Notes: generated by a model not told the origin, from the sequence alone. A stretch of DNA of 34,356 bases from Fibrobacter sp. (GCA_012515615.1 JAAYYB010000365.1:1-34356), one strand, 5' to 3'. Numbered from the stretch's first letter, positions 4,788-25,560 are shown. Translations and numbers: made by a program.

Positions 4788-5417
4788 TTATTCTGAACTG
4801 CAGGTCATTAAAAAAAGCGGATACTCCCTTTTCCCTTTACCCCCGTGTTCCCTGACCACCCGATCGATTGTCTGAAACTCGACATTTATGAAACCGGCTC
4901 TCTCAGCCTTTGATTCAAGCTCTTCTCTGTCAAAACCATGGTGTCCGGAAAAGCCCTCGCCGTGAAATGAACCATCTTCTTTGTCCAGATCTGCAATACA
5001 CAGATGACCGCCGGTTCTCAGCATAGAATGAAATTTCCGCAAAACTTCGGGGACATCACTTACATGATGCATCGCAAGGAGCGTATAAATGATGTCAAAC
5101 TGCTCCTCGGGCGGGTCCGATTTCGTGAGGTCAATCTCAATAGCAGTCATATTCATCACAGATGTTTTCTCAATTTTTGACCTCACCACCTCAAGCATCC
5201 CTCTGGAACTGTCAGCCATAACAATCCTTTTGAGAAAAGGCTGCAGAAAAAAACTGACCAGCCCGGTTCCACACCCATACTCAAAAGCGGTACATTCCTT
5301 AGACGGCTGCACCTTATTCATTATCGCCCCGGCTGCAATCTCCGCCCTTTTTTTCTTTTCAGGATCCAGATCCCAGTCTTTTGCTCTGGAATCAAAGTCG
5401 TTTTTATCGTGGTTCAT
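4788..5417 (-). CDS. Class I SAM-dependent methyltransferase (UbiE/MenG-like fold)
   Basis: A 209-residue protein with a Rossmann-type methyltransferase core. Motif I is FEYGCGTGLVSFFL (residues 45-58). An acidic motif II follows at MADSSRGML, and the motif IV region is FDIIYTLLAMHHV, followed by LRTGGHLCIADLD. These assign the class but not the substrate. I chose the ATG at 5417, which has AAGGGTGA immediately upstream. The frame stays open to 5507, but the extra 30 residues are Cys/His/Gln-rich and lack a ribosome-binding site. It converges on hoxW. The heptamer repeat array lies just upstream and may separate it from the helicase gene on the same strand. Confidence 0.85.
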   Translation of the reverse strand: MNHDKNDFDSRAKDWDLDPEKKKRAEIAAGAIMNKVQPSKECTAFEYGCGTGLVSFFLQPFLKRIVMADSSRGMLEVVRSKIEKTSVMNMTAIEIDLTKSDPPEEQFDIIYTLLAMHHVSDVPEVLRKFHSMLRTGGHLCIADLDKEDGSFHGEGFSGHHGFDREELESKAERAGFINVEFQTIDRVVREHGGKGKREYPLFLMTCSSE

Positions 5418-5535
5418 TTCACCCTTCATCCATCTCTGTTTTGCTGTTGATTCAAATTGATTTATGCATTCAAACCCGCGCTGTTTATGACACGCATGCC
5501 GCAGCACTGATCGCTTAACACTCCCTACTCCAGAT

Positions 5536-5908
5536 TTCTTACTTTCTACTTCCTACTTCTTACTTTCTACTTTCTACTTCCTACTTCTTACTTCCTACTT
5601 CTTACTTCCTACTTCCTACTTCCTACTCCCTACTCCCTACTCCCTACTCCCTACTCCCTACTCCCTACTCCCAACTTCCTACTTCCTACTCCCTACTTCC
5701 TACTCCCTACTTCCTACTTCCTACTCCCTACTTCCTACTCCCTACTCCCTACTCCCTACTCCCTACACCCTACACCCTACACCCTACACCCTACACCCTA
5801 CACCCTACTCCCTACTCCCAACTCCCAACTCCCAACTCCCAACTCCCAACTCTCTACTCCCTACTCCCTACTTGCAACTTTCGACTTGCGACTTTCGACT
5901 TGCGACTT
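5536..5908. repeat. Degenerate heptamer microsatellite array, about 50 units
   Basis: About 370 bp is built of 7-bp units with the consensus CTACTCC on the plus strand. Variants occur in blocks: CTACTTC/TTACTTC at the left, CTACTCC in the middle, a run of CTACACC near 5761-5810, then CAACTCC near 5815-5850, and CGACTTG/CGACTTT at the right end. The phase of 7 is kept almost throughout. The block pattern suggests local duplication of already mutated units. The array fills the gap between the helicase stop (5909) and the methyltransferase promoter region. It has no spacers and no reading frame of note. Confidence 0.95.
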
Positions 5909-7627
5909 TTACCCTATCCCCAACTTCCTCATCCTTGAGAAAATTGCGCCTCTGCTTCTCCCCATTTCCTCCGCAATTTTCTTTACCGGGCTCCCTTTTG
6001 TCGTAAGAAACCTCAGTCTGTCATCATCCTGCTGTCGCCAGTACTGTCCTGCATTCAGAAGTTTCTCTTTTTGAATTTCTTGCTTTCGCGCATTCTCTTC
6101 TGACTGTCTTCTGTTCCCACTCTTTACACTCTGACAGTATGGGCTATGCTCACCAAATATTGAATTCGGTACAGTGATTCTGCCCCTGCTTCTGCTGATT
6201 GCCACATAAAGCAGATTAATCTCTTCATTAAGCTGATCTTTCTCAGGTGCAGACAGTTCATTTTTTTCGGTCAACCGTATCAGTTTCTTTTCAGTTACAA
6301 AATCATCCTCCAGTGTGACACTGTCATACTCCAGTCCTTTACACTTGTGCACAGTCGAGAAGATCATTTCCGCCCTGTCTTTGCAACTGTCTTCAAGGTG
6401 GTTTTCCTTCAGCCTTTTCAGATAAAAGGGAAGCATTTTGCCATGCTCATCAACCATTATTGTCATCGCAAGCAGCTCAGCATCTTCTGCCAGTTCCGCA
6501 TATTCCCGAAGTTCCTCGAATGATCTCACCTTTGAGATCATAGGGTCGCGGATAAGATCTCTTTTTTCAGTGTAAAGATTAAAAACATCCCAGATCGACG
6601 CTCCTTCAGAAGCATAAGTATAGGTGGAAAGATTACCCTCGAAATAGATCTTTCTGTTACTGTTTCCAACGCATGTGAAATTAATCGCCTCGCGCAGCAG
6701 CGCAAGGTTGGTCCTGGCAATTGTTGCCCGGGAAGATACCGTCCTGGCCTTTTTTCCCAGTCCGCGGATATTCACATCAAGTGGATTTTTCAGATAAGTC
6801 TTCCACTGAAGGACTGCCATGGCAAGATCGGCGATTGTCTGCGGAAAACGAAAGCTTGCAGTAAGGGAGTATTCTTTGAAATCAACACCGGAGAGCGCAT
6901 TTACAGCATAACGCCAGGAATATATCTGCTGGTGGACATCCCCTACTATAAGCTTCACCGCATGATCCTGTTGCAGGAACACATCAAGCATTACCGGCGA
7001 TGCATCCTGACCTTCATCGAATAGAATAATATCATAAGCGAGTCGGGGTTTACAAAGCTGATATTTTTTAAGGTAAAATTCATGGGGAATCTCAATTTTC
7101 CCTGAATTCATCAACGCCAGAAACTTCCTGGTCCCATCGATGATTCTGTTGTAATTCTTTTTAACAAAACCGAGTGCCTTCTCATCCCTCACCCAGTCGG
7201 TGTAATCAAGGTCCTGCACCTTTTCCTGAGGCTGACTGCAGAACAGTGAAGCAAATCGCCCGATATGGCGTGCAATTAAAACAGATGTAAGCGGATCTTT
7301 CCCCAGGGGCTTTATTTTAAGCATCTCGCTTATTTCCCAGGGTTTATACGATGCCCGGACTTTGTATTGGAACTGTGGGACAATGCGGCTCCAGGCCAGA
7401 GAATGAGCCGTCTCAACACGTATATTGCTGAGCCCTTCACATTCAAATCTGCGCAGGGCTTCCAGTTTTACAGATTTATTGAACGCAATGTATAGAATGC
7501 GTTTGTTTTTCCCCCGATGTCTTGCGTACTCCAGCAGCGTGCTTGTTTTACCGCTTCCAGCCACTGCATGAATTTTGACATTTCCCGAACTGTCAAGAAT
7601 CACTTTCTGCTCATCGGTGAGCCGCAT
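5909..7627 (-). CDS. UvrD/Rep-family superfamily 1 helicase with C-terminal HTH-like segment
   Basis: A 572-residue SF1A helicase or ATP-dependent nuclease-like motor. The motifs appear in order: Q-motif region [10 protein letters not shown], motif [11 protein letters not shown] (residues 21-30), motif [12 protein letters not shown], motif [14 protein letters not shown], motif [14 protein letters not shown], motif [15 protein letters not shown] and motif [14 protein letters not shown]. It is shorter than UvrD (about 720 residues). The last ~35 residues ([20 protein letters not shown]) look like a small helix-turn-helix DNA-binding module. I prefer the ATG at 7627, which puts the Q-motif at the N-terminus. 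A GTG at 7657 would add 10 residues but has no good ribosome-binding site. No nuclease domain is fused. Its role in repair or replication restart is inference. Confidence 0.88.
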
Positions 7628-7800
7628 AATTACTTTCTTTGTCTGTTCTTTTTCCACAAGATAAAAATAGGTTCTGGCAGAGATGGCCTTGCAGGACTGA
7701 ATCAGGTAGCATCAGGATTCGTTCAAAGCCTTTATGCACAAGGGATAAGTGCAGTTCGCCCTGAACCGGGCGCATAAGTCAGGTTGTACGTAGATCTGCT

Positions 7801-7835
7801 GAAGAAAAGAAGATGCGCCCGCCAGAGGCGCATCT
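7801..7835 (-). terminator. Rho-independent terminator of the alpha-glucan operon
   Basis: AGATGCGCC (7811-7819) and GGCGCATCT (7827-7835) form a perfect 9-bp stem with a 7-nt loop. Read on the minus strand it is followed by TCTTTTCTTC. It lies 24 bp past the stop of the GT4 gene, the last gene of the operon. Confidence 0.8.
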
Positions 7836-7858
7836 GTGCATATATCAGAAGGTAATTG

Positions 7859-9016
7859 TCAACTGCAGTAGACGCCTAAGGTCTGGTCCGCTATAGTGTC
7901 CCAGGAAAAGGAGTTCTCAACCGCCTCACGTCCCTTGCTCCCCATCCATCTTGCATGTTCGAAGTTGGCAAACAGGGAACCAATACCCCAGGCAATAGAT
8001 TCTGTATTGGGGTAAACCTTGAATCCATTGACATTGTGCCAGACGAATTCGGTCCCGTTGTGAGTAGCGATAACCGGCTTGCCCGCAGCCCAGGCCTCAA
8101 GGACAACAATCCCGAATGGCTCATTTCGGCTTGGTACGGCTACACAGTCACAGGCACGATAGAGATCGATCAGCTCACCGCGCGGAAAAACACCATAGAA
8201 CCGGCAGGCATGAGCCACTCCCATGCTGCGGGCCATATTTTCAATGTGCCCCTTCATATCGCCTTCACCTGTAAAGATAAACTTGGCATTGGGATAAAAA
8301 CGCAGGACATGGGGAATCGCACTCACCAACAGGTCAGGCCCCTTCTGAGATGTGATTCTACCTACAAAAAGCACCGTGGGATCTACCGGCCCGATACTAT
8401 ATCTGGCCTTAACCCGTCCCGGGTCAATCCAACCGTCAAATGAATGATAGGAAATACCGTTTGCAATCACCGAAGCTTTCCAGTCAGGCACATTGTATAT
8501 CCACTTTATCTCATTTTTAAGGAGCTGGGAGACTGTGATAACTTTATCGGCACAAAAGGTGGCATGGCGCTCGTGGTCCATGATCCTCTGTGATCTTCCG
8601 CCGTAAAAATTATTTCCGCATCTTCCGTATTCTGTTGAATGGATGGTTATTATCCCTTTGCGACCACGTCCCTGTTTGATCCAGACCATCGCATTTGAAG
8701 CCATCCAGTCGTGAGCATGTACAATGTCAAACCCTGCACCCTGATAGCTTTCCTGATGATAGACAGCATCCACAAAGGATCTGCACATATTATTTACATC
8801 ATCAACGATATCGTGTGCTCCGGAATATGGAACACGGTGATAATGTACGCCATGAATTCTATCGTAATGCCAGTCACCGTTCCATCGCATTCTGGTGAAA
8901 ACGTGTACATCGTGTCCTTTACGTTCAAGCGCCGCGGCGAGCTCAGTGACATGCACCGCTACTCCGCCCAGTGAAACTGAGTGGAGTGACTCCCACGACA
9001 ACAAGGCTATTCGCAT
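7859..9016 (-). CDS. GT4 family glucosyltransferase (glycogen synthase-like)
   Basis: A 385-residue GT-B fold retaining glycosyltransferase. The N-terminal glycine loop is SLGGVAVHVTELA (residues 15-27), followed by HAHDW (100-104). The C-terminal half has donor-site residues R220 and K225 in GRITSQKG, and the E-x7-E motif E299/E307 in NEPFGIVVLEAWAAGKPVI. All catalytic positions are therefore intact. GT4 enzymes beside GH57 branching enzymes are commonly alpha-glucan or glycogen synthases (GlgA- or GlgM-like). The donor (ADP-glucose, UDP-glucose or maltose-1-phosphate route) cannot be told from the sequence. It is the last gene of a three-gene operon, 42 bp after the GH57 gene and followed by a terminator. 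AAGGAGTTTCAC precedes the ATG. Confidence 0.88.
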   Translation of the reverse strand: MRIALLSWESLHSVSLGGVAVHVTELAAALERKGHDVHVFTRMRWNGDWHYDRIHGVHYHRVPYSGAHDIVDDVNNMCRSFVDAVYHQESYQGAGFDIVHAHDWMASNAMVWIKQGRGRKGIITIHSTEYGRCGNNFYGGRSQRIMDHERHATFCADKVITVSQLLKNEIKWIYNVPDWKASVIANGISYHSFDGWIDPGRVKARYSIGPVDPTVLFVGRITSQKGPDLLVSAIPHVLRFYPNAKFIFTGEGDMKGHIENMARSMGVAHACRFYGVFPRGELIDLYRACDCVAVPSRNEPFGIVVLEAWAAGKPVIATHNGTEFVWHNVNGFKVYPNTESIAWGIGSLFANFEHARWMGSKGREAVENSFSWDTIADQTLGVYCS

Positions 9017-9058
9017 GTGAAACTCCTTTTTAAGATGAGATATTTTTCATGTCTGTTT

Positions 9059-10648
9059 TCAATCTGCAAAAACCTGATAATCCGCCTCAGGAAAAATACA
9101 ATCTAAAAGTTCAAGCGATGACAATTCATTTTCATCAAGGCTATCTTTTTCAATGCTGTCGGCCAGAAAATGAAACCTGCTGACATGATCACGAATCCGC
9201 CGTGATGCATACTGTTCTGCGGTTCCATTCGTAATTATAAAAGGCCAGTCTGAACACTGGGCAAGCAGAAGTTCCCTTACGCACTGATTGAGGGCACGTT
9301 TGACAAGAGGACGTTCTGGACCGGGTTTCTGAGATGCTGCCAGCTTTATCATTCTGCGGATGCATTCATAGACCTGAGTAAGAACCCAGTCAGTTTTTCC
9401 ATTGCACCATACATCAAAATAACCTTTGCTTCCCCAACTTGAAATACCCGGCACTCCATATTGATGAACCGGGTGAAGATTAAGGTAAGAAAGCGGTGAT
9501 ATCAGAGAGAACACATCCTGATCATACGCTGTCTTTCTGATAAGAAAGTCCAGAAACTGCGGGCCCTCAAACCACCAGTGGCCGAAGAGTTCAGCATCAA
9601 ACGTGGCCACTATAAGCGGCACGGTACTGCCCATAGTTGAGGAAATATGAGAAATCTGGTCAACGCGTCTCTGCATAAAGACTGCGGCATGTTCCGCGGC
9701 CTTTTCCCTGGCCTTGAAGGGATCATAATATTCCTTATGATGATATCCCCTTCCGGTAATGCGCCAGTATTTTATGCCAGTGTCAACTCTGATGTTCCCG
9801 GCCATGTAGGGCCTGATATACTCAAAATCGACTTCATGTCCGATGTCACGATAAAACTCGCGATAATTGGGATCTCCAGGGAACCCCTTGTTAGCTGACC
9901 ACACCTCCTCGGTACACCCCTGATCACGCGCAAGTACCGCCACCCCCGATGGCGTGTAGAGAGGGGCGTAGACACCATGAAGAGGAAGAACGCTGGCATG
10001 ATCGATCCCGTGCGACTCAAGGAAAAAATAGCGGATATCCTGCTCACGGAGGTACTCCTCGATTCCGGGAATATAGGCACACTCAGGAAGCCAGAACCCC
10101 TGGGGCTTTATGCCCAGCGCCTTCTCAAAAGCCTTCACCCCTTCACTTACCTGTGACCTTATCGCCCTGGGCTCAGATGCCAGCAGCGGCAGAACCGCAT
10201 GGGTAGCGGATGTAGTTATAAGCTGAACCGATTTCTGTCCATGCAACCAGGAAAATGCGCGGATCAGATGCCCGTCCCAGCTCTCAAATACCTCCAGTGT
10301 TTCTTTAAATGACTGGTGATAATTTGAGGCGAGCCACTGCAGATGTCCACTGTAACTGGTACGATCCTTTTCCTTTGCAGCCAGCTCTATGAGCTTCTCA
10401 AGATGAGACCTGTAACGCTGAATCAGAATAGGATCCTCCATCATGCAGATAAGAGTCGGTGAAAGTGAAATAGTGATCTCAAATGGAACCTTATCCTGTA
10501 CAAGCCTGCTCAGCACCTTTACAAGAGGTATATATGTCTCGGTCATCACTTCAAAAAACCATCTCTCTTCGAGGAAGGAATCGTATTCAGGATGCCTGAC
10601 ATATGGAAGATGAGCATGAAGGATTATGGCCAGATGCCCCTTAACCAA
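9059..10648 (-). CDS. GH57 family 1,4-alpha-glucan branching enzyme
   Basis: A 529-residue protein close to the length of characterised GH57 branching enzymes. It starts with LAIILHAHLPYVRHPEYDSF, which holds the conserved His motif. The catalytic nucleophile is E189 in FWLPECAY and the general acid/base is D351 in TFDAELFGHWW. The C-terminal third matches the helical (DUF1957) region of this subgroup. It would transfer alpha-1,4 chains to alpha-1,6 branch points in a glycogen-like polymer made by the neighbouring GT4 enzyme. There is no signal peptide, so it is cytoplasmic. The start overlaps the end of the upstream DUF4912-GT4 gene by 8 bp, which suggests translational coupling. Alpha-amylase or 4-alpha-glucanotransferase activity is the alternative within GH57. 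Confidence 0.92.
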   Translation of the reverse strand: MVKGHLAIILHAHLPYVRHPEYDSFLEERWFFEVMTETYIPLVKVLSRLVQDKVPFEITISLSPTLICMMEDPILIQRYRSHLEKLIELAAKEKDRTSYSGHLQWLASNYHQSFKETLEVFESWDGHLIRAFSWLHGQKSVQLITTSATHAVLPLLASEPRAIRSQVSEGVKAFEKALGIKPQGFWLPECAYIPGIEEYLREQDIRYFFLESHGIDHASVLPLHGVYAPLYTPSGVAVLARDQGCTEEVWSANKGFPGDPNYREFYRDIGHEVDFEYIRPYMAGNIRVDTGIKYWRITGRGYHHKEYYDPFKAREKAAEHAAVFMQRRVDQISHISSTMGSTVPLIVATFDAELFGHWWFEGPQFLDFLIRKTAYDQDVFSLISPLSYLNLHPVHQYGVPGISSWGSKGYFDVWCNGKTDWVLTQVYECIRRMIKLAASQKPGPERPLVKRALNQCVRELLLAQCSDWPFIITNGTAEQYASRRIRDHVSRFHFLADSIEKDSLDENELSSLELLDCIFPEADYQVFAD

Positions 10649-12434
10649 AGTAAACCCCCCTTCTGATTGCTACCGCACAGGCCCAGTAGGTTATATACAT
10701 GGCCGCTATGCACTCGGCTGTATTCAGCAGCTCAGGGTCCTCAACTGAACGCGGCAGAACAGGTATAGGCCTCGACATCATCTCCTTTACACCCCAGGCT
10801 ACTGAACCGGGATTGTCGTAAAACAGTAATCCGTTTACCCCATGGCGTACCTTATCATGGAGACCGGCCTGATGAGTGGTAATTACAGGCTTTCCAGCCT
10901 TGAGTGCCATCTCCGCAAGCCTCCCGTTTTGTCTGCTGCGGGCAGGGATAATTACCGAATCACAGGCATCGAGCAGTTTACTGAAGATTTCAGAGGGAAC
11001 ATCACCTATAAATCGGCATCGGTGAGCAATTCCTGAATGCCACACACGTCCCTCCATCTCCCCTTTAAGATATCCTTCACCCGCAAAAACAAACTGCCCC
11101 TGATGAAACTCACGGCAGATCCCCGGAAGAACATTGACAAGAAGATCCACTCCGGTATGATGAGCCATTTCACCCGCAAACAGATAAAGCGGTTCCTTGT
11201 CATTGAGGTAGTATTTACTGCAGATGTACTCTCTCTCATGGCTTGTATCAGGAGTCCGGACAAGCTTGTCTGCGACTACCACCACACGTTCGGGATCTTT
11301 TTTATAGTGTTGAATTATTGTCTGTCTTGTACTCTCCCTTGGAACAAGAATGTTTTCAGCCGTTGAAATCAGCTTGCTTTCCCACGATTCTATCTGCTGT
11401 GAAACCTGGTTTTTCAGGTCAAAGTTTGTGCGTTCAAGTTCAATAGAATGAAGAACGCCGGTGATCGGAAGCCCATTAACAGTCGCAGCTTCGATTGCGG
11501 CAGGTGCAGAATACCAGTCATGACACTGTATGCAGTTGAAGGATTTCCTGCTGTGGATCTGGGTAAACCTGTCAACCATCGACTTCGATGTGCTTTTCGC
11601 CCTGTTGACAAGGGACTGTGCCCCGTAATCATAAACCTGCTTGTTTCTTGGTGTAAGCAGATACGGCACAGCCCTCATGATTTTACACTTTGCCAGCACA
11701 GCTTCCAGAAAACCGCCTATGGGCCCACTGGCATTCTGGTTTTGCAGCACTGCAGCCTCATTAAGAAACACCGCAACTGAAAGCGGCGCGTTTCCGGTGT
11801 ATTCCAGTGACCGGTTCATCCTGTCAAAAACCGATCCGCAGACAGCATTCTCTACAGCAAAGATTCTGGTAAACCCATGGCTCACATACAATCCCGAGAA
11901 GTTGAACCTGGAGGACCTGCGCGGGCGGTCAAAATACATGTAGTTGGAACGCACACAGGCCTTAAAGCGATTATCTGAAAAGCGGAAACCCACCTCTGCA
12001 AGAAGATTACACTCAGAACGGTTAATGTTGAGATAGTAATTTCCCGTAAGATTGTTGATATCAATATCAAACTGGCTTAATGCATTGAACCCGTTGAATT
12101 CAACATTGCTGACATCATAAACCCTCAACACCAGCCGGCAGCCCCGATTAAACGCATCCCTCTCCTTTTCATTCAGACCTGCAACCGTCAGATCATTGAT
12201 ATGCCACTGTATAAACCCCAGATGCGGATTAACTGCCAGAAGCACCATCCCCTCCTGGCTCAGGGATGACGGGAAACGGGTTCCTGTATTCCAGCAAACA
12301 TCTCTCAGGACGTTTTGAGAAATAGGCTCCATTTCCACTTTTTTTTCCGATTTTGGGAATTTATTGTCATACTCGGAAACGGCAGGCATTTCAGCTTCTG
12401 AAACCAGAATCTGCTGGAGTGAATTGAATTGCAT
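10641..12434 (-). CDS. DUF4912 domain fused to a degenerate GT4 domain (probable pseudo-glycosyltransferase)
   Basis: A 597-residue two-part protein. Residues about 62-195 match the DUF4912 pattern (LLAVNPHLGFIQWHI, YYLNINRSECNLLAEVGF), a domain often found with carbohydrate-active genes. Residues about 220-590 are a GT-B/GT4 domain that aligns without gaps to the GT4 enzyme two genes downstream, at a constant offset of 202 residues. The four conserved GT4 donor-site residues are all replaced: R220 by E422, K225 by T427, and the E-x7-E glutamates E299 and E307 by R501 and M509. The fold core (DLLVNVLPG, FAGEGYLKG, AGKPVITTH) is kept. I infer a non-catalytic scaffold or regulatory partner for alpha-glucan synthesis. 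AGGAGG lies 7 bp before the ATG. It is the first gene of the operon. Confidence 0.8.
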   Translation of the reverse strand: MQFNSLQQILVSEAEMPAVSEYDNKFPKSEKKVEMEPISQNVLRDVCWNTGTRFPSSLSQEGMVLLAVNPHLGFIQWHINDLTVAGLNEKERDAFNRGCRLVLRVYDVSNVEFNGFNALSQFDIDINNLTGNYYLNINRSECNLLAEVGFRFSDNRFKACVRSNYMYFDRPRRSSRFNFSGLYVSHGFTRIFAVENAVCGSVFDRMNRSLEYTGNAPLSVAVFLNEAAVLQNQNASGPIGGFLEAVLAKCKIMRAVPYLLTPRNKQVYDYGAQSLVNRAKSTSKSMVDRFTQIHSRKSFNCIQCHDWYSAPAAIEAATVNGLPITGVLHSIELERTNFDLKNQVSQQIESWESKLISTAENILVPRESTRQTIIQHYKKDPERVVVVADKLVRTPDTSHEREYICSKYYLNDKEPLYLFAGEMAHHTGVDLLVNVLPGICREFHQGQFVFAGEGYLKGEMEGRVWHSGIAHRCRFIGDVPSEIFSKLLDACDSVIIPARSRQNGRLAEMALKAGKPVITTHQAGLHDKVRHGVNGLLFYDNPGSVAWGVKEMMSRPIPVLPRSVEDPELLNTAECIAAMYITYWACAVAIRRGVYFG

Positions 12435-12513
12435 TTTTTTCCTCCTGAATGGGAATGCAGTTTCTGAAAGTATGCTTGTAAAGCTATGTAACTATTCAGT
12501 TTCGTTGCTTTAT

Positions 12514-12679
12514 CCTAAAAGTCGCAGTTGGGGAGAATAAAAACTGTAAGAGGTTGAGATGATAAGGCTTGAAGGCATTGCAGGTCTTAACCGACCAGGT
12601 GATAAGATCAAGATGCCTGAAAGCCTTAGCGCTCAACAGATTACAATTTTTTCCTCATCCAACTGCGATTTTCAGGTTT
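12514..12679 (+). repeat. MITE-like palindromic repeat, family A copy 1
   Basis: A 166-bp imperfect palindrome running from CCTAAAAGTCGCAGTTGG to CCAACTGCGATTTTCAGG. The interior is also self-complementary: AAGGCTT...GGTCTTA pairs with TAAGATC...GAAAGCCTT. A second copy follows at 12833-13000 in the same orientation, and a third lies inverted at 25386-25560. It sits upstream of the DUF4912-GT4 gene. There is no transposase, so it would be non-autonomous. Confidence 0.85.
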
Positions 12680-12719
12680 GTTGAAGCCGCCAGGGAAAAG
12701 AACCCGCAAAAGGCTCTGG

Positions 12720-12836
12720 ATGGCGGAAAAACGGGCAGTTGAACTGTATAGTAACTATTTCAATAAGAACCTAAAGAGGCATGCAAGAACTATGCCTACA
12801 GCGCAGGGATCCCGGACGGACTTTCTTTTAACATAA
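12720..12836 (+). other. Short open frame between two family A repeats (possible gene remnant)
   Basis: An ATG at 12720 opens 38 codons (MAEKRAVELYSNYFNKNLKR...), and the stop lies in the first bases of repeat copy 2. The frame is also open upstream to the right end of copy 1. It has no ribosome-binding site and no domain I recognise. It may be the remnant of a gene trapped or broken by the two repeats, or chance. Confidence 0.2.
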
Positions 12837-13000
12837 AAGTCGCAGTTGGGGAGAATAAAAAACCGTTAGACGTTGAGATGATAAGGCTTGAAGGATCGCA
12901 GGTCTTATCGACAAGGTGATAAGATCAAGACGCCTGAAAGCCTTAGCGCTTAACAGATTACGATTTTTTTGCCTCATCCAACTGCGATTTTTAGATTTAA
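12833..13000 (+). repeat. MITE-like palindromic repeat, family A copy 2
   Basis: It has the same order of blocks as copy 1: TAAAAGTCGCAGTTGGGGAG at the left, GATAAGGCTTGAAGG in the middle, and CCAACTGCGATTTTTAG at the right. It is about 90 percent identical by eye, with small indels. The 184 bp from here to the hypB stop hold nothing I recognise. Confidence 0.85.
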
Positions 13001-13184
13001 CCGTTGCCTTTCTGCAGACATGTGGTAATATTTACCAGCTGTTCCTGTGGGGCCTTACAGAAATTTTAGAATCAGGGTTTAAACGGTGTCGATTTTTTGA
13101 GGAGAGTTGCAGATTAGGGCGCCAGCCGCATCAAAAAGTAAAGGTACGGTGACGCCCCTGTTCCACGTGCTAAACCTGCTTTGA

Positions 13185-13850
13185 TCAGCTCTTTTTAACT
13201 TCAGAAACAGAGTCGGCAAGCCAGTCTATCCAGCCCTCAAGCCCCTGCTCCGCACGGCATGATACCTCAAGAACAGGAACACGGCCGTTAAGCTTTTTGA
13301 CGCTGGAAATGTAGTAATCCTTATCAAAATCCGTAAACTGAATCAGATCGATTTTATTGAGCACAACAAGTCTGCATTCATTGAAAAGAAGCGGATATTT
13401 CTCCGGCTTATCGTGACCTTCTGTTGCAGAGGAGATAGCGATCTTGCAGTTCTCTCCAATATCAAATTCCGCGGGACAGACAAGATTTCCAACGTTTTCA
13501 ACAAAAATGATATCCGTTCTGTCAAGATCAAACTCATCAAGAGCCTTTCGAATGGTGATCGGTTCAAGATGACATGCTCCATCAGTATTGATCAAAGCAA
13601 TAGGTATATCGTACTTCTGCAGCCTGACAGCATCTTTATCTGTTGCAACATCACCTTCTATAACGGCAATTGAGAAACGTCCCTTCAAAGTGGCCAGAGT
13701 CTTTTCAAGCAACGTTGTTTTTCCGGAACCCGGAGAACCGATAAGGTTTACCATCAGGACATGCTTTTCCTTTAGATGATCCCTTATCTGCTGAGCCTGT
13801 CCCTCACAGGCATCCAGAATGTTTTTAATCACTTTGATTTCCAAAGTCAC
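13185..13850 (-). CDS. hypB: Hydrogenase nickel incorporation GTPase HypB
   Basis: A 221-residue SIMIBI-class GTPase that works with HypA to deliver nickel to the hydrogenase large subunit. The P-loop is GSPGSGKTT (residues 38-46), NKID is at 165-168, and the metal-binding residues of the G domain are C93-H94 (GACHLEP) and C125 (VCPAEFD). The N-terminal CxxCGC nickel site and His-rich stretch found in some HypB proteins are absent, so nickel storage is not expected. The start overlaps the hypA stop by 4 bp (ATGA type). It is the last gene of the hypFCDEAB operon. Confidence 0.95.
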   Translation of the reverse strand: MTLEIKVIKNILDACEGQAQQIRDHLKEKHVLMVNLIGSPGSGKTTLLEKTLATLKGRFSIAVIEGDVATDKDAVRLQKYDIPIALINTDGACHLEPITIRKALDEFDLDRTDIIFVENVGNLVCPAEFDIGENCKIAISSATEGHDKPEKYPLLFNECRLVVLNKIDLIQFTDFDKDYYISSVKKLNGRVPVLEVSCRAEQGLEGWIDWLADSVSEVKKS

Positions 13851-14188
13851 TCTCCTTCCATTGTATCTATTAAAAGTTCTTTCCCTTCGATTACATCGAC
13901 ATCTATTCCAGAGCAGCCTTCACAGATAAAAAAATTATCCTCAACGATAAACTCCCTGCCGCATGTACGGCAGACTGCTTTCGCCGGAACAAAAGTCATG
14001 CTTACTGATGCTGATTCGGCTATGGTGCCTTTTTTAGCGGTATCAAATGCAAATTGGAACATCTCTGGAACTATCTGACGAAGATTCCCGATTTTCAGAT
14101 GCACCCTTGTAACCCGCGACATTTTGTTTTCCTCAGCAACACTCTTTATGATGTCGAGGAGGTTTTCAACTATACTGAGTTCGTGCAT
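13847..14188 (-). CDS. hypA: Hydrogenase nickel chaperone HypA
   Basis: A 113-residue nickel metallochaperone. It starts MHELSIVENLL, with the N-terminal Met-His that binds nickel. The zinc site is two CxxC pairs, C73/C76 (CRTC) and C89/C92 (CEGC). This is the standard length and layout. It overlaps hypB by 4 bp downstream and is separated from hypE by 85 bp that contain a small heptamer repeat. Confidence 0.95.
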   Translation of the reverse strand: MHELSIVENLLDIIKSVAEENKMSRVTRVHLKIGNLRQIVPEMFQFAFDTAKKGTIAESASVSMTFVPAKAVCRTCGREFIVEDNFFICEGCSGIDVDVIEGKELLIDTMEGE

Positions 14189-14191
14189 GTG

Positions 14192-14229
14192 TCAGAGGAC
14201 AAAAGACAGAAGACAGAGGACAGAAAAAA
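14192..14229. repeat. Short heptamer repeat between hypE and hypA
   Basis: Five units of about 7 bp (AGAGGAC, AAAAGAC, AGAAGAC, AGAGGAC, AGAAAAA) form a small microsatellite just upstream of the hypA start. It is purine-rich on the plus strand, hence pyrimidine-rich in the hyp transcript. No obvious ribosome-binding site for hypA is visible in it, because the transcript here reads mainly TCTGTCC-type units. Confidence 0.75.
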
Positions 14230-14273
14230 GAAGATCCTGCTGTAATACTGTGTTCGGTCCAGATTCCTGCCTT

Positions 14274-15287
14274 TCAGCAGATCCGGGGAAGCTGGTCACC
14301 TGCAGGCATGCTGATGATTCTCCTGCCCCCGATCATTGTTTTCATTTCAACTATTCCTTTATCAGCGGTTACCCGCCCTATCACTGCGGCATCTGTGCCC
14401 AGTGGATTTTTTCTCATAGCCCCAAGAACCCTCTCTGAGTCTTTTTCCCTCACAGTCAATACTACTTTGCCCTCGTTGGCAATAAAGAGAGGATCAAAAC
14501 CAAACATATCACTCATACTCTTTACTGCATTACGTACAGGCAGGGCCTTTTCTTCAATTAAAATCCCTGCATTGCGGCTCTCAGCCAGCTCACAGATCAC
14601 CGTTCCAAGCCCCCCACGGGTGGCATCACGCATGAAGGTAACCTGATCTGTTGTATCAAGTATATCGGCAATAAGATGGTTCAGCGGAGCACAGTCACTC
14701 TTTACATCAGCACTGAAAGGCAACTCCTCCCTGGCTGCAAGAATTGCCATCCCGTGATCACCGATAAACCCATTTACAATGACCACATCACCCTCTTTGA
14801 CTTTTTCTCCGGGACCTATACCCGCCCTCTCCTGACGGATCGGCCCTATTCCTGAAGTGTTAATGAAGATCTTGTCGGCCATGCCCCTGTTGACCACTTT
14901 TGTATCACCGGTCACTATTGACACACCGGCCTCTTTTGCAGTGAGTGCCATAGACTCTGCAATTTTCTCCAGTTCATCAAAAGAGAACCCCTCTTCAATA
15001 ATAAACGATACACTTAGTGCCTGGGGAGTTGCACCGCTTACAGCCAGATCGTTCACTGTGCCGCATACAGCCAGCTTGCCGATATTTCCGCCGGGGAAAA
15101 AGATCGGGTTGACCACAAAAGAGTCTGTCGTAAATGCTACTTTCTGTCCGCTTACATCGATTACAGCAGAATCTGTACGCTGGTCAAGTACAGGGTTGGA
15201 GAATCGTGAACCGAAAATCGAATCGATTAACTGATGCGTCAATCGTCCGCCGCTGCCGTGGTTGAGAAGAACTTTCTTATTTTCCAT
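14274..15287 (-). CDS. hypE: Hydrogenase cyanide ligand synthesis protein HypE
   Basis: A 337-residue PurM/AIR-synthase-fold enzyme that dehydrates the carbamoyl group placed by HypF on its C-terminal cysteine into thiocyanate, the source of the cyanide ligands. The C-terminus PRIC ends in C337, as required. The N-terminus LLNHGSGGRLTHQLI and the later TDSFVVNPIFFPGG and RDATRGGLGTV segments are typical. I choose the ATG at 15287, which has GGTGAC just upstream and overlaps the hypD end by 11 bp. Frames open further upstream read through hypD and have no homology. Confidence 0.95.
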   Translation of the reverse strand: MENKKVLLNHGSGGRLTHQLIDSIFGSRFSNPVLDQRTDSAVIDVSGQKVAFTTDSFVVNPIFFPGGNIGKLAVCGTVNDLAVSGATPQALSVSFIIEEGFSFDELEKIAESMALTAKEAGVSIVTGDTKVVNRGMADKIFINTSGIGPIRQERAGIGPGEKVKEGDVVIVNGFIGDHGMAILAAREELPFSADVKSDCAPLNHLIADILDTTDQVTFMRDATRGGLGTVICELAESRNAGILIEEKALPVRNAVKSMSDMFGFDPLFIANEGKVVLTVREKDSERVLGAMRKNPLGTDAAVIGRVTADKGIVEMKTMIGGRRIISMPAGDQLPRIC

Positions 15288-16365
15288 TGTCACCATATTG
15301 AAAATAGGCCGAACAGGTACCTTCTGAGGAAACCATACAGGCGCCCACAGGATGATTCGGGGTACAGGCGGTCCGGAAAAGTTTACATTGATTTGGCTTT
15401 TTGATTCCTTTAAGAACATCACCGCAGATACATCCCGCACTCTCCCTGGTCTCTTCTATTTTAACCGGGATCATCTCTGCTGCATCAAAGCGGCTGTACT
15501 TCTCTGCAAGCTTCAAACCGCTTTTGGGTAAATTTCCAAGCCCGCGCCAGTAATCGTCCGAGGATACAAATACCTCTTCTATTACTTTCTGTGCTCTCAA
15601 ATTACCCTCTGGACGGACCGCCCGGCTATATTGGATTTCCACCCGGGCATCCCCGCTCTCAACCTGCTTTATTATCATCCAGATTGACTGAAGTATGTCT
15701 GAAGGTTCGAATCCTGAAACAACACAGGGTTTATGGTATTTACCTGCGATAGGCTCGTAAATACTGCTTCCGGTAATAACACTGACATGACCCGGGCAAA
15801 GGTAAGCGTCAATTCTAACCCCCTCATCAATAAGGGCCGTCATTGCCGGAGGCATCACCTTGTGGGAACTGAGAACAAAAAAATTGTCTGCAGATGCTTT
15901 TGCAGCCTCTATTACCGCTATTGCGGTCCCCGGAGAGGTCGTCTCAAATCCGATGCCCAGAAACACCACTTTGAGCCCGGGATTGGCCGATGCAAACGTA
16001 AGAGCCTCAAGAGCAGACCAGACCACCTTTACTGATGCGCCATTGGCCTTCTCTTTTTCTAAAGACGAAGTTGAACCCGGGACACGTATCAGATCGCCGT
16101 AAGTTGCAATCACTACACCCGGTTCCCGTGCAAGTGCAACAGCATGATCAATAAAACGAATATCAGAAACACAGACCGGACACCCGGGGCCTGAAATCAG
16201 GCTTACGGTTTCCGGCAGCAGTGACGGGATACCGTGCCGCTGAAGGGCCATCGTATGCCCGCCGCATACTTCCATGATTGAAACAGGAGTTCTGGATTCA
16301 AAACAGATCCGCTCTGCAAGTGCCCTGCAGTCACGCTGATTCCTGAAATCTTCCCGAAGGTTCAT
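15277..16365 (-). CDS. hypD: Hydrogenase Fe(CN)2CO assembly scaffold HypD
   Basis: A 362-residue [4Fe-4S] scaffold that, with HypC, receives the cyanide groups from HypE onto iron. Signature motifs are MEVCGGHTMALQRHGI, SGPGCPVCV and GFETTSPGTAIAV. The C-terminal cysteine cluster region is visible in GCICGDVLKG, CKLF, ACTPNHPVGACMVS and GTCSAYF. It overlaps hypC by 4 bp upstream and hypE by 11 bp downstream, so the operon is very compact. The call is firm. Confidence 0.96.
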   Translation of the reverse strand: MNLREDFRNQRDCRALAERICFESRTPVSIMEVCGGHTMALQRHGIPSLLPETVSLISGPGCPVCVSDIRFIDHAVALAREPGVVIATYGDLIRVPGSTSSLEKEKANGASVKVVWSALEALTFASANPGLKVVFLGIGFETTSPGTAIAVIEAAKASADNFFVLSSHKVMPPAMTALIDEGVRIDAYLCPGHVSVITGSSIYEPIAGKYHKPCVVSGFEPSDILQSIWMIIKQVESGDARVEIQYSRAVRPEGNLRAQKVIEEVFVSSDDYWRGLGNLPKSGLKLAEKYSRFDAAEMIPVKIEETRESAGCICGDVLKGIKKPNQCKLFRTACTPNHPVGACMVSSEGTCSAYFQYGDNGK

Positions 16366-16589
16366 TGCTCGCCTGAGCTTTCCGAAAGCTGCTTGAAAAG
16401 CGCCAGAGTCTGTTCTGCTTCAGCAAGATCCATTTTCTCCAGAATATATCCAGAATGCACGAGGACAAAGTCCCCGATTTTAAGCTCTTCGACAAGATGT
16501 GTGCCTGCTTCACAGACAACATCTCCAAAATCCACACCGGCCCGCTGGCCATCTATCCACACTACCTTACCTGGAATTCCAAGACACAT
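16362..16589 (-). CDS. hypC: Hydrogenase assembly chaperone HypC/HupF family
   Basis: A 75-residue chaperone whose N-terminal Cys2 (MCLGIPGKV) binds the iron precursor and later escorts it to the large subunit. GDFVLVHSGYILEKMD is the conserved C-terminal half. The ATG overlaps the hypF stop in a TAATG arrangement, and the gene overlaps hypD by 4 bp. It is the only HypC paralogue in the window, as expected for one hydrogenase. Confidence 0.95.
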   Translation of the reverse strand: MCLGIPGKVVWIDGQRAGVDFGDVVCEAGTHLVEELKIGDFVLVHSGYILEKMDLAEAEQTLALFKQLSESSGEQ

Positions 16590-18841
16590 TATTTCCTTCT
16601 TCTCCCGGCCGCAACAGCAGTCTGCCCCAGCGCTATTCCCCCATCATTACAGGGGATAAGGCTATGGGTATAAACCGTAAAGCCTGCAGTTTTCAATTCC
16701 TTGACTGCCCCTTCAAAAATACATCTGTTCTGAAAACAACCGCCAGACAAAACCACAGAATCCAGCCCTGTTTCAGTGCGTATTTTCAAGCAGATCTCTC
16801 TAATCACATCAAACAGTGTTTTGTGAAACCGCCCTGATATAACAGGCACAGGAACACCACTGAGTACATCTTCACAAATCATGCGTATTGACGGCCTCAG
16901 ATCAATAGTGCCGTCAAAATCCCATCTATAAGTTTCAAGCCGTTCGTCTTTCGCCGCACAAGCCTCAAGCCGCATTGCCGCTTCCGCCTCGAAACTGTTT
17001 ACTGTACATAGACCGGTAAGAGCAGAAACAGCATCAAAGAGCCGCCCGGCACTGGATGTAGGCACACAGCGGATCTTCTTTTCAAGCGCAAACACGACCG
17101 CCTCCAGCATCCGCTCTTCAACCCGGCTGAAAAACGGTTTGAATTCCTCTGCGAAACTCTTTCCCGAAAGGTCATACAGGTAAGCGGCGGCCATTCTCCA
17201 TGGCTCTTCTGAGGCCCTGTCCCCCCCAGGCATATTGACGTACCTAAAATGGGTGAAACGTTTTGAATTCTGAAGATCACAGATAAGAAACTCTCCACCC
17301 CACACCGCGCCATCATCTCCAAGGCCGGTACCGTCAAAAGAGACTCCGATTACCTCCCTGTCGATATTGTGCTCCGCCATGCAGGAAGCAATATGTGCAT
17401 GATGATGCTGTACCTCTTCAATGGGAAGCCCGGAGTTTCTCGCAAAAACACTGGAGAGGTAATCAGGATGCCTGTCACAGGCGAATAACCGGGGCTCAAC
17501 CCTGAACATCTTTGTAAATCGTTCAAAAGACTCTCTGAAAAAGGAAAATGTCTCAGCGTTTTTCAAATCACCTATGTGCTGACTGAGCAGAACCTTGTTT
17601 CCCTTACCCACAGCGAAACAGTTTTTAAGCTCGGCACCTACCGCTGCTATACCATCAACATCAAAAGAGAGACTGACCGGAGAGGGTACAAGCCCCCTGC
17701 TGCGCCGAAAAGTCACAGGATTCCCGGAATATACCGCGGTTACAGAATCGTCAACCCGGTTATATATGTCTCTATTGTAACAGAGAACTGCGTCTGCAAT
17801 CCCGCTGAATTTTTCGATGGCTTCACTGTCATCGATCACAACCGGCTCCTCAGAGATATTACCGCTGGTCATAACGAGTGCCGGGAAGGAAAGCTTCTCA
17901 AAAAGCATATAATGCAGCGGCATATAAGGAAGCATCACGCCAATGGTCCCCAAACCGCTGTTTACCTCGGGCAGAAGCTCAAGATGCTGCTTTAAAAGCA
18001 CAATCGGGCTCACCGGCGAGGATATCAGCTTTTCCTCTTCTTCGTTGATATATGCATATTCCTTCAGAGCTTCCACATCACGAAACATCAGCGCAAACGG
18101 CTTCCCGTCCCGTCTCTTACCTGTGCGGAGTTTTTCTAACGGCTCTTTCAAAAATGGATTGCAGGCAAGGTGAAATCCGCCTATACCCTTGATTGCAACA
18201 ATAGAACCATTCTGGAGCATTGATACTGTGGCATCTACAATCTCATTTATCCCGGTGATCTCATTGCCGCTCGGTAAATGAAGGGTATAAACGGGGCCGC
18301 AACTGTTGCAGGCCACTGGCTGTGCATGAAACCTGCGGTCTGAAGGATCAGCGTACTCCTCTGCACACTGGCTGCACATTCTGAACGGTGCCATCGTTGT
18401 TTTGGGCCGGTCGTATGGTACACCACTTATAATCGAAAACCTCGGGCCGCAGAATGTACAGTTAACAAAAGGATAATCGATCCGGTGCGGCTGTCCTTTG
18501 AGATCATCGAGACAGAGCTCACAGACCGCAATGTCCGGACTTACATCAGTCACTGAATTACTTAAGTCTGCGCTCTCTTTTATTAAAAACTCTTTCGATT
18601 CTGCTACATCGATCTCCTGAACTGTCACAGAATCTATTCTGGCCAGAGGAGGCGGATTACGCTTTATCTGCTCAATAAAAGATGCGAGGTCTATATCTGT
18701 CCCCTGGGCGCAGATTTCGACACAGTCAGAGAGGTTCTTTACATACCCTTTGATCCCGAACCGGGTGGCACTTTTATAAACAAACGGCCGGAATCCTATT
18801 CCCTGCACCAGACCTCTGATATGTACTAGTAAAGTCTTCAT
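16589..18841 (-). CDS. hypF: Carbamoyltransferase HypF
   Basis: A 750-residue multidomain enzyme that turns carbamoyl phosphate into a carbamoyl group on HypE. The N-terminal acylphosphatase domain has VQGIGFRPFVY (residues 12-22). Two zinc-finger units use C107/C110/C128/C131 and C156/C159/C178/C181. A YrdC-like domain follows (roughly 200-380), then a Kae1-like carbamoyltransferase domain with HHHAH near residue 478 and LSGGCFQNR near the C-terminus. The length is the usual one. GAAGGATAG precedes the ATG. It is the first gene of the hypFCDEAB operon; the 100 bp upstream should hold the promoter, but I could not pick boxes with confidence. Confidence 0.96.
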   Translation of the reverse strand: MKTLLVHIRGLVQGIGFRPFVYKSATRFGIKGYVKNLSDCVEICAQGTDIDLASFIEQIKRNPPPLARIDSVTVQEIDVAESKEFLIKESADLSNSVTDVSPDIAVCELCLDDLKGQPHRIDYPFVNCTFCGPRFSIISGVPYDRPKTTMAPFRMCSQCAEEYADPSDRRFHAQPVACNSCGPVYTLHLPSGNEITGINEIVDATVSMLQNGSIVAIKGIGGFHLACNPFLKEPLEKLRTGKRRDGKPFALMFRDVEALKEYAYINEEEEKLISSPVSPIVLLKQHLELLPEVNSGLGTIGVMLPYMPLHYMLFEKLSFPALVMTSGNISEEPVVIDDSEAIEKFSGIADAVLCYNRDIYNRVDDSVTAVYSGNPVTFRRSRGLVPSPVSLSFDVDGIAAVGAELKNCFAVGKGNKVLLSQHIGDLKNAETFSFFRESFERFTKMFRVEPRLFACDRHPDYLSSVFARNSGLPIEEVQHHHAHIASCMAEHNIDREVIGVSFDGTGLGDDGAVWGGEFLICDLQNSKRFTHFRYVNMPGGDRASEEPWRMAAAYLYDLSGKSFAEEFKPFFSRVEERMLEAVVFALEKKIRCVPTSSAGRLFDAVSALTGLCTVNSFEAEAAMRLEACAAKDERLETYRWDFDGTIDLRPSIRMICEDVLSGVPVPVISGRFHKTLFDVIREICLKIRTETGLDSVVLSGGCFQNRCIFEGAVKELKTAGFTVYTHSLIPCNDGGIALGQTAVAAGRRRK

Positions 18842-25385: not shown

Positions 25386-25560
25386 TTTAACCTGAAAATC
25401 GTAGTTGGATGAGGCAAAAAATCGTAATCTGTTTAGCACTAAGTCTTTCAGGCATCTTGATCTTATCATCTTGTCGGATAAGACCTGCGATGTCTTCAAG
25501 CCTTATCATCTCAACACCTTACGTTTTTTTATTCTCTCCAACTGCGACTTTTAGGTTTAA
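25386..25560 (-). repeat. MITE-like palindromic repeat, family A copy 3 (inverted)
   Basis: This is the same element as at 12514 and 12833, in reverse orientation. It is bounded by TTAACCTGAAAATCGTAGTTGG and CCAACTGCGACTTTTAGGTTTAA-type ends, and is the best preserved copy. These ends suggest terminal inverted repeats of about 23 bp, including TTAA-type tips. It lies 110 bp upstream of the efflux promoter, in a gene-free stretch. From 25561 to 25746 I recognise nothing. Confidence 0.85.

Follow-up and report, generated by a model that had tools for sequence, protein, structure and literature searches.

Plant STARCH SYNTHASE 5 (SS5) is a nonenzymatic starch-synthase homologue that takes part in granule initiation (PMC10801857). 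In VldE, an active, OtsA-like C-N coupling enzyme, contact with the acceptor cyclitol is made by Asp158 and with the donor cyclitol by His182. The phosphates and the ribose are contacted by Arg290, Lys295 and Glu391, the last of which follows Asp383 by eight positions (PMC3441724). In mycobacteria, the alpha-1,4-glucosyltransferase Rv3032 and the putative GH57 branching enzyme Rv3031 belong to the methylglucose lipopolysaccharide cluster (PMC2674218, PMC6629080).

We analysed a 34,356-nucleotide stretch of DNA from Fibrobacter sp., called the window throughout, in which one gene joins a DUF4912 domain to a degenerate GT4 domain in a cluster with a GH57 branching-enzyme-type gene and an intact GT4 gene (Table 1). 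Like SS5, this fusion is GT-B and glycogen/starch-synthase-like and would stand beside active synthases in alpha-glucan metabolism; its donor-site residues are lost, so that it may share with SS5 the lack of enzyme activity. SS5, on the other hand, is a plant plastid starch-synthase homologue that has no DUF4912 and is not tied to a GH57 gene. By analogy, SS5 may be the nearest functional parallel of the fusion, as a parallel and not as membership. VldE and ValL share with the fusion the GT-B fold and the name of pseudo-glycosyltransferase (pseudo-GT), but VldE retains the Arg/Lys and the D-x7-E of the nucleotide site, which the fusion does not have. In streptococci, the GtfA/GtfB system consists of an active GT4-type enzyme encoded beside a GT-like partner and acts on Ser-rich adhesins; unlike the fusion locus, it includes no GH57 and no DUF4912. 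The mycobacterial cluster sets a precedent for encoding a glucosyltransferase together with a GH57 protein, as in the window, although the passages considered in those reports mention no pseudo-GT or DUF4912 fusion (PMC2674218, PMC6629080).

Table 1. Features of the fusion gene and its neighbours, in positions of the window.
Feature	Position	Strand	Remarks
DUF4912 + degenerate GT4 (pseudo-glycosyltransferase) fusion	10641..12434	-	ORF of 597 aa
DUF4912 domain	11907..12251	-	residues 62-176 of the fusion; N69, L72, H78 and Y133 at the hallmark D, W, E and W
GT-B N-terminal (acceptor-side) domain of the fusion	11250..11789	-	about residues 216-395
GT-B C-terminal (donor-side) domain of the fusion	10770..11222	-	about residues 405-555
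E422, replacing the donor-site Arg	11169..11171	-	E in 8/9 orthologues, Q in 1
T427, replacing the donor-site Lys	11154..11156	-	Lys replaced by T/S/N/A in 9/9 orthologues
R501, replacing the first Glu of E-x7-E	10932..10934	-	Glu absent in 9/9 orthologues
M509, replacing the second Glu of E-x7-E	10908..10910	-	Glu absent in 9/9 orthologues
Overlap of fusion stop and GH57 start, 8 bp	10641..10648	-	TTGGTTAA
GH57 branching-enzyme-type protein, second paralogue in the genome	9059..10648	-	catalytic E189 and D351 kept
GT4 glycosyltransferase	7859..9016	-	R220, K225, E299 and E307 intact; next to the fusion at 10/10 loci

Both halves of the fusion are recognised by Pfam above the family cut-offs, with 74.8 bits against 29.4 for DUF4912 (PF16258, residues 62-176) and 64.9 bits against 26.4 for Glycos_transf_1 (PF00534, residues 408-556). 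The AlphaFold model (mean pLDDT 79) consists of a DUF4912 beta-sandwich and two Rossmann lobes, and the predicted lobes match the structures of MshA, GlgM and GlgA in Foldseek (E 5e-20 to 2e-16). The orientation of the lobes to each other is unreliable in this model (pTM 0.54), the MshA match (E 5e-20) having an rmsd above 13 Å over the whole chain. The Pfam match and the predicted lobes agree with a preliminary description of this DNA, which held that the GT fold is retained. That description also aligned the fusion with the adjacent GT4 without a gap, which is correct around all four donor-site positions but not over the full length, where the best pairwise alignment is interrupted by three small gaps, located around residues 289, 391 and 525. 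No RNA families were found within positions 5000-14500 of the window.

The replacements that the preliminary description had read from its alignment, R220 by E422, K225 by T427, E299 by R501 and E307 by M509, are exact at an offset of 202. Our search for fusion genes covered 61 genomes and yielded ten, of which nine are complete and one, in genome G013, is shortened; when 168 genomes of the phylum were scanned for DUF4912, no further frame with this domain was long enough for a fusion. All four donor-site residues are absent from all nine complete orthologues, drawn from two families whose species are related, so that these counts are not independent. The nine proteins read ETRM, ETKM, ESHR, ENPL, ESCA, ESPA, QTLN, ESKR and EARL at the four positions. 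Among 36 intact GT4s used for comparison, RKEE is kept in all 22 of the adjacent (16/16) and sister (6/6) proteins, and in the 14 more distant paralogues R, K and the first E are present throughout and the second E in 13, with Q in the remaining one. Divergence alone does not explain the loss, because the sister and more distant GT4s keep these residues. The change of Arg to Glu in eight of nine fusions would put a negative charge at the place of the pyrophosphate and would repel it. At the other three positions (the Lys and both Glu) the replacements vary freely among the fusions, as is expected once donor binding is no longer under selection. The glycine pair of the N-domain (GG loop) is gone in all nine as well; one G remains in three of them, and the second G is P in eight and R in one. 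Judged from these residues, the fusion very probably lacks ordinary nucleotide-sugar glycosyltransferase activity.

The acceptor side has kept its motifs. The H and W of HDW are present in 9/9 fusions and the D in 7/9 (H305-D306-W307 in the window protein, within HDWY), and HSxExxR retains its H, S, E and R in 9/9 (with H329, E332 and R335 in the window protein). H329 is the equivalent of the acceptor-side His126.

In the tree, the nine pseudo-GTs form one clade with support of 100/100, which joins the tree outside the group made up of the adjacent and the sister GT4s, with long branches involved. This position suggests that the clade branched off long ago and did not arise as a recent copy of the neighbouring gene. 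A recent tandem copy of the adjacent GT4 is unsupported, the clade lying outside its group, though the adjacent GT4 is the best BLAST match. Comparison of the orthologues places the loss of the donor site before the split of the window's family from the lineage of G031, unless the gene moved horizontally.

The other half of the fusion belongs to a wider pattern. Across 168 genomes of the phylum, presumably Fibrobacterota, DUF4912 lies directly upstream of the GH57 branching-enzyme gene, on the same strand, at 136 of 147 loci, with a median distance of 1.8 kb from domain to domain. Both are found in 130 genomes, GH57 only in seven, DUF4912 only in two and neither in 29; the Fisher value for this co-occurrence, 1e-23, overstates independence, the genomes being related. 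Five of the eleven exceptional GH57 loci, all from one genus, have a divergent DUF4912 upstream that is found by a family HMM. Two others (G008, G012) are genes broken between contigs, where DUF4912 precedes the other fragment, three (G130, G156, G159) are no more than 2.1 kb away from the start of a contig, and for the last (G121) a DUF4912 match sits at the edge of another contig. Counted by genome, five of the seven with GH57 only have a divergent DUF4912 upstream (four by family HMM, the fifth likewise), and both DUF4912-only matches (G098, G137) have a contig start less than 1 kb away, in the direction in which the GH57 gene would be expected. Genomes with both and genomes with neither are found side by side in several families, so that DUF4912 and GH57 come and go together. 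Among 14 control genomes outside the phylum, DUF4912 occurs in three and BE_C in three, two of them shared; plasmids of other phyla gave no DUF4912 match and two distant GH57 matches, and a search of further genome contigs gave a single relative, from the same phylum. We found no literature on this near-strict pairing, and in the open-access papers searched we found mention of DUF4912 in a cotton-callus transcriptome study only. In G031, which carries five DUF4912 matches including the fusion, two stand-alone DUF4912 genes (L041:5885-6781 and 13739-14398) flank the GT4/fusion/GH57 cluster.

Most canonical DUF4912 domains of the phylum carry the signature RDPxW...YWE, in place of which the fusions have xPxL/F...WH/Y. 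The signature D, W and E are replaced in 10/10 fusions, although the first W varies among canonical members too. Having lost the canonical residues, the DUF4912 of the fusion may have changed its partner surface. The model of a canonical DUF4912 matches FN3/Ig-like beta-sandwich domains in Foldseek, and no PDB sequence matches the DUF4912 profile. A predicted fold of this kind suits a module for protein binding or scaffolding no less well than one for carbohydrate binding; that DUF4912 is a known carbohydrate-binding module is unsupported, since Foldseek gives FN3 domains. Genus g11 (L132-L135) has DUF4912 genes with the motif KDPQNxFxYWE directly upstream of GH57, some of them followed by long low-complexity stretches rich in His, Asn and Gly.

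DUF4912 being the regular upstream partner of GH57, the fusion can be understood as a modified member of the DUF4912-GH57 pair. In the window and eight relatives it is followed directly by GH57 on the same strand, and the 8-bp overlap noticed earlier is real and is exactly 8 bp at seven of the nine loci with both genes; G013 has an overlap of 11 bp, and in G004 the genes are apart. The overlap supports translational coupling, rather than the fixed stoichiometry that had been read from it. The GH57s of the window type (paralogue 2) form their own clade (100/99), keep the catalytic Glu and Asp, and branch in an order that resembles that of the pseudo-GTs. The closest solved relative of the window GH57, for the GH57 part alone, is the Thermotoga GH57 'alpha-amylase' 2b5d (E 2e-142). 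A canonical pair is found elsewhere in the window genome (G000), on contig C154 (L049:7498-9782), with a DUF4912 protein of 222 aa and a GH57 protein of 531 aa, and GlgA (GT5), GlgC and GlgP also lie elsewhere. With the classic glycogen genes and the canonical pair at other sites, the window cluster appears as a second glucan-type cluster, and the adjacent GT4 is at most a candidate for its glucan synthase.

Taken together, the sequences are best read as those of a fusion that is probably a non-catalytic, glucan-acceptor-binding adaptor for a second alpha-glucan pathway. Of the scaffold, primer-binding or regulatory role suggested in the preliminary description, the non-catalytic part fits best, while the 'glucan synthase' partner and the 'fixed stoichiometry' are not supported. 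It is proposed that a DUF4912-GH57 gene pair was duplicated, that its DUF4912 member, in one copy, acquired a GT-B domain of the GT4 type, and that the nucleotide-sugar site of this domain was lost before the surviving lineages split. The DUF4912 domain would then dock on the GH57 enzyme, the product of the overlapping gene, and the GT-like domain, with its acceptor-side groove residues kept, would hold a growing alpha-glucan chain or primer and present it first to GH57 and then to the active GT4 encoded alongside. For this fuller version, an adaptor with DUF4912-GH57 contact, glucan binding and chain hand-over, we are about evenly divided between belief and doubt, and we offer it as a proposal only. 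Several points count against the adaptor reading: G008 has the fusion and GT4 with no GH57 beside them; DUF4912, as modelled, resembles FN3 and not a specific carbohydrate-binding module; its partner surface may have changed in the fusion; and the modelled orientation of the two GT lobes is unreliable.

The fusion might instead assist the active GT4 next to it through protein-protein contact, as a heterodimer subunit of the kind seen in GtfA/GtfB or other co-GT pairs, and not itself bind glucan, which we consider rather unlikely. In its favour, GT4 is the most constant neighbour. The preliminary description raised whether the fusion always occurs with GH57 and an intact GT4, and this is so for GT4 at 10/10 loci, G008 included, but for GH57 at nine of ten. 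GT4 stands upstream of the fusion, downstream of it or divergent from it, and the linkage is kept although the gene order is not. GT4 orthologues also occur without the fusion, and the fusion was never found without GT4. Nevertheless, the gene belongs to the DUF4912-GH57 pairing and its overlap with GH57 is conserved, and a plain protein partner would not need the conserved acceptor-side residues.

If the GT half were a structural remnant or spacer, the working part would be DUF4912 on the GH57 enzyme, which is the common unit of the phylum. The fusion of G013 (L042:6805-8010) is in line with this: a clean in-frame deletion of 507 bp removes the whole donor Rossmann lobe and leaves DUF4912, the N-lobe and the C-terminal helix, so that the donor lobe would be dispensable in G013 if the deletion, a single case in a single draft genome, is real. 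We think a remnant quite improbable, however, as the motifs ATHQ and NGLxxYDNxGS of the C-domain are conserved across nine fusion proteins, the acceptor-side motifs are conserved too, and dN/dS between G000 and G001 is about 0.06 for the C-domain, 0.09 for DUF4912 and 0.07 for the whole fusion gene, values that are rough since dS (1.5-2.1) is near saturation.

A fusion that is still an enzyme, working by other chemistry or residues as the pseudo-glycosyltransferase VldE does, is less probable again. The GT-B fold and the equivalent of the active-site His, H329, are kept, and by motif Asp158 and His182 of VldE would correspond to the Asp of HDW and the His of HSxE. Arg290, Lys295 and Glu391 would by the same comparison correspond to three of the lost positions: VldE keeps its phosphate and ribose residues, whereas in the fusion all four equivalents are gone together with the glycine pair, and the replacements vary freely at three of the four positions. 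VldE-type chemistry is therefore unlikely, the equivalents of the nucleotide-site Arg/Lys and D-x7-E being gone.

Decay of the gene, for which one could cite branches longer than those of the intact GT4s, the divergence of G008 and the shortening in G013, is refuted as a general explanation and so improbable that it could apply at most to G013 or G008 alone, because purifying selection, 73 invariant columns common to the nine complete proteins and a single old origin speak against it, as do the conserved overlap and a frame that is open in ten genomes, from six genera of the window's family and one genus outside it. The loss is thus fixed across the clade, in 9/9 complete orthologues, and not confined to one merely decayed copy, the outcome that had been named as fatal to the earlier claim.

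Returning to the adaptor reading, pseudo-enzymes that steer storage glucan are known from plants (SS5), and the fusion, if the reading is true, would be a bacterial one and a tractable system for how polymer chains start and pass between synthase and branching enzyme. The pairing of DUF4912 with GH57, near-strict as it is, provides a first testable function for DUF4912, a domain of unknown function. More speculatively, DUF4912 could be a dedicated partner subunit of GH57 across Fibrobacterota, and one branch could have turned it into a bacterial counterpart of SS5, a DUF4912-pseudo-GT by which alpha-glucan chains are seeded or presented in a second, specialised glucan pathway; this we regard as possible and would not at present favour.

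Upstream of the cluster, on the same strand, window positions 13185-18841 hold a putative hydrogenase maturation run (hypB, hypA, hypE, hypD and hypF, assigned by eye). A MITE-like repeat, about 170 bp long and with terminal inverted repeats, occurs at window positions 12509-12680, 12827-12998 and 25389-25555, the first two copies lying shortly upstream of the fusion gene in direct orientation. The genome has more than 40 strong copies of this repeat, some of them immediately ahead of glgA (C164) and in the vicinity of a glgC-like gene (C175).
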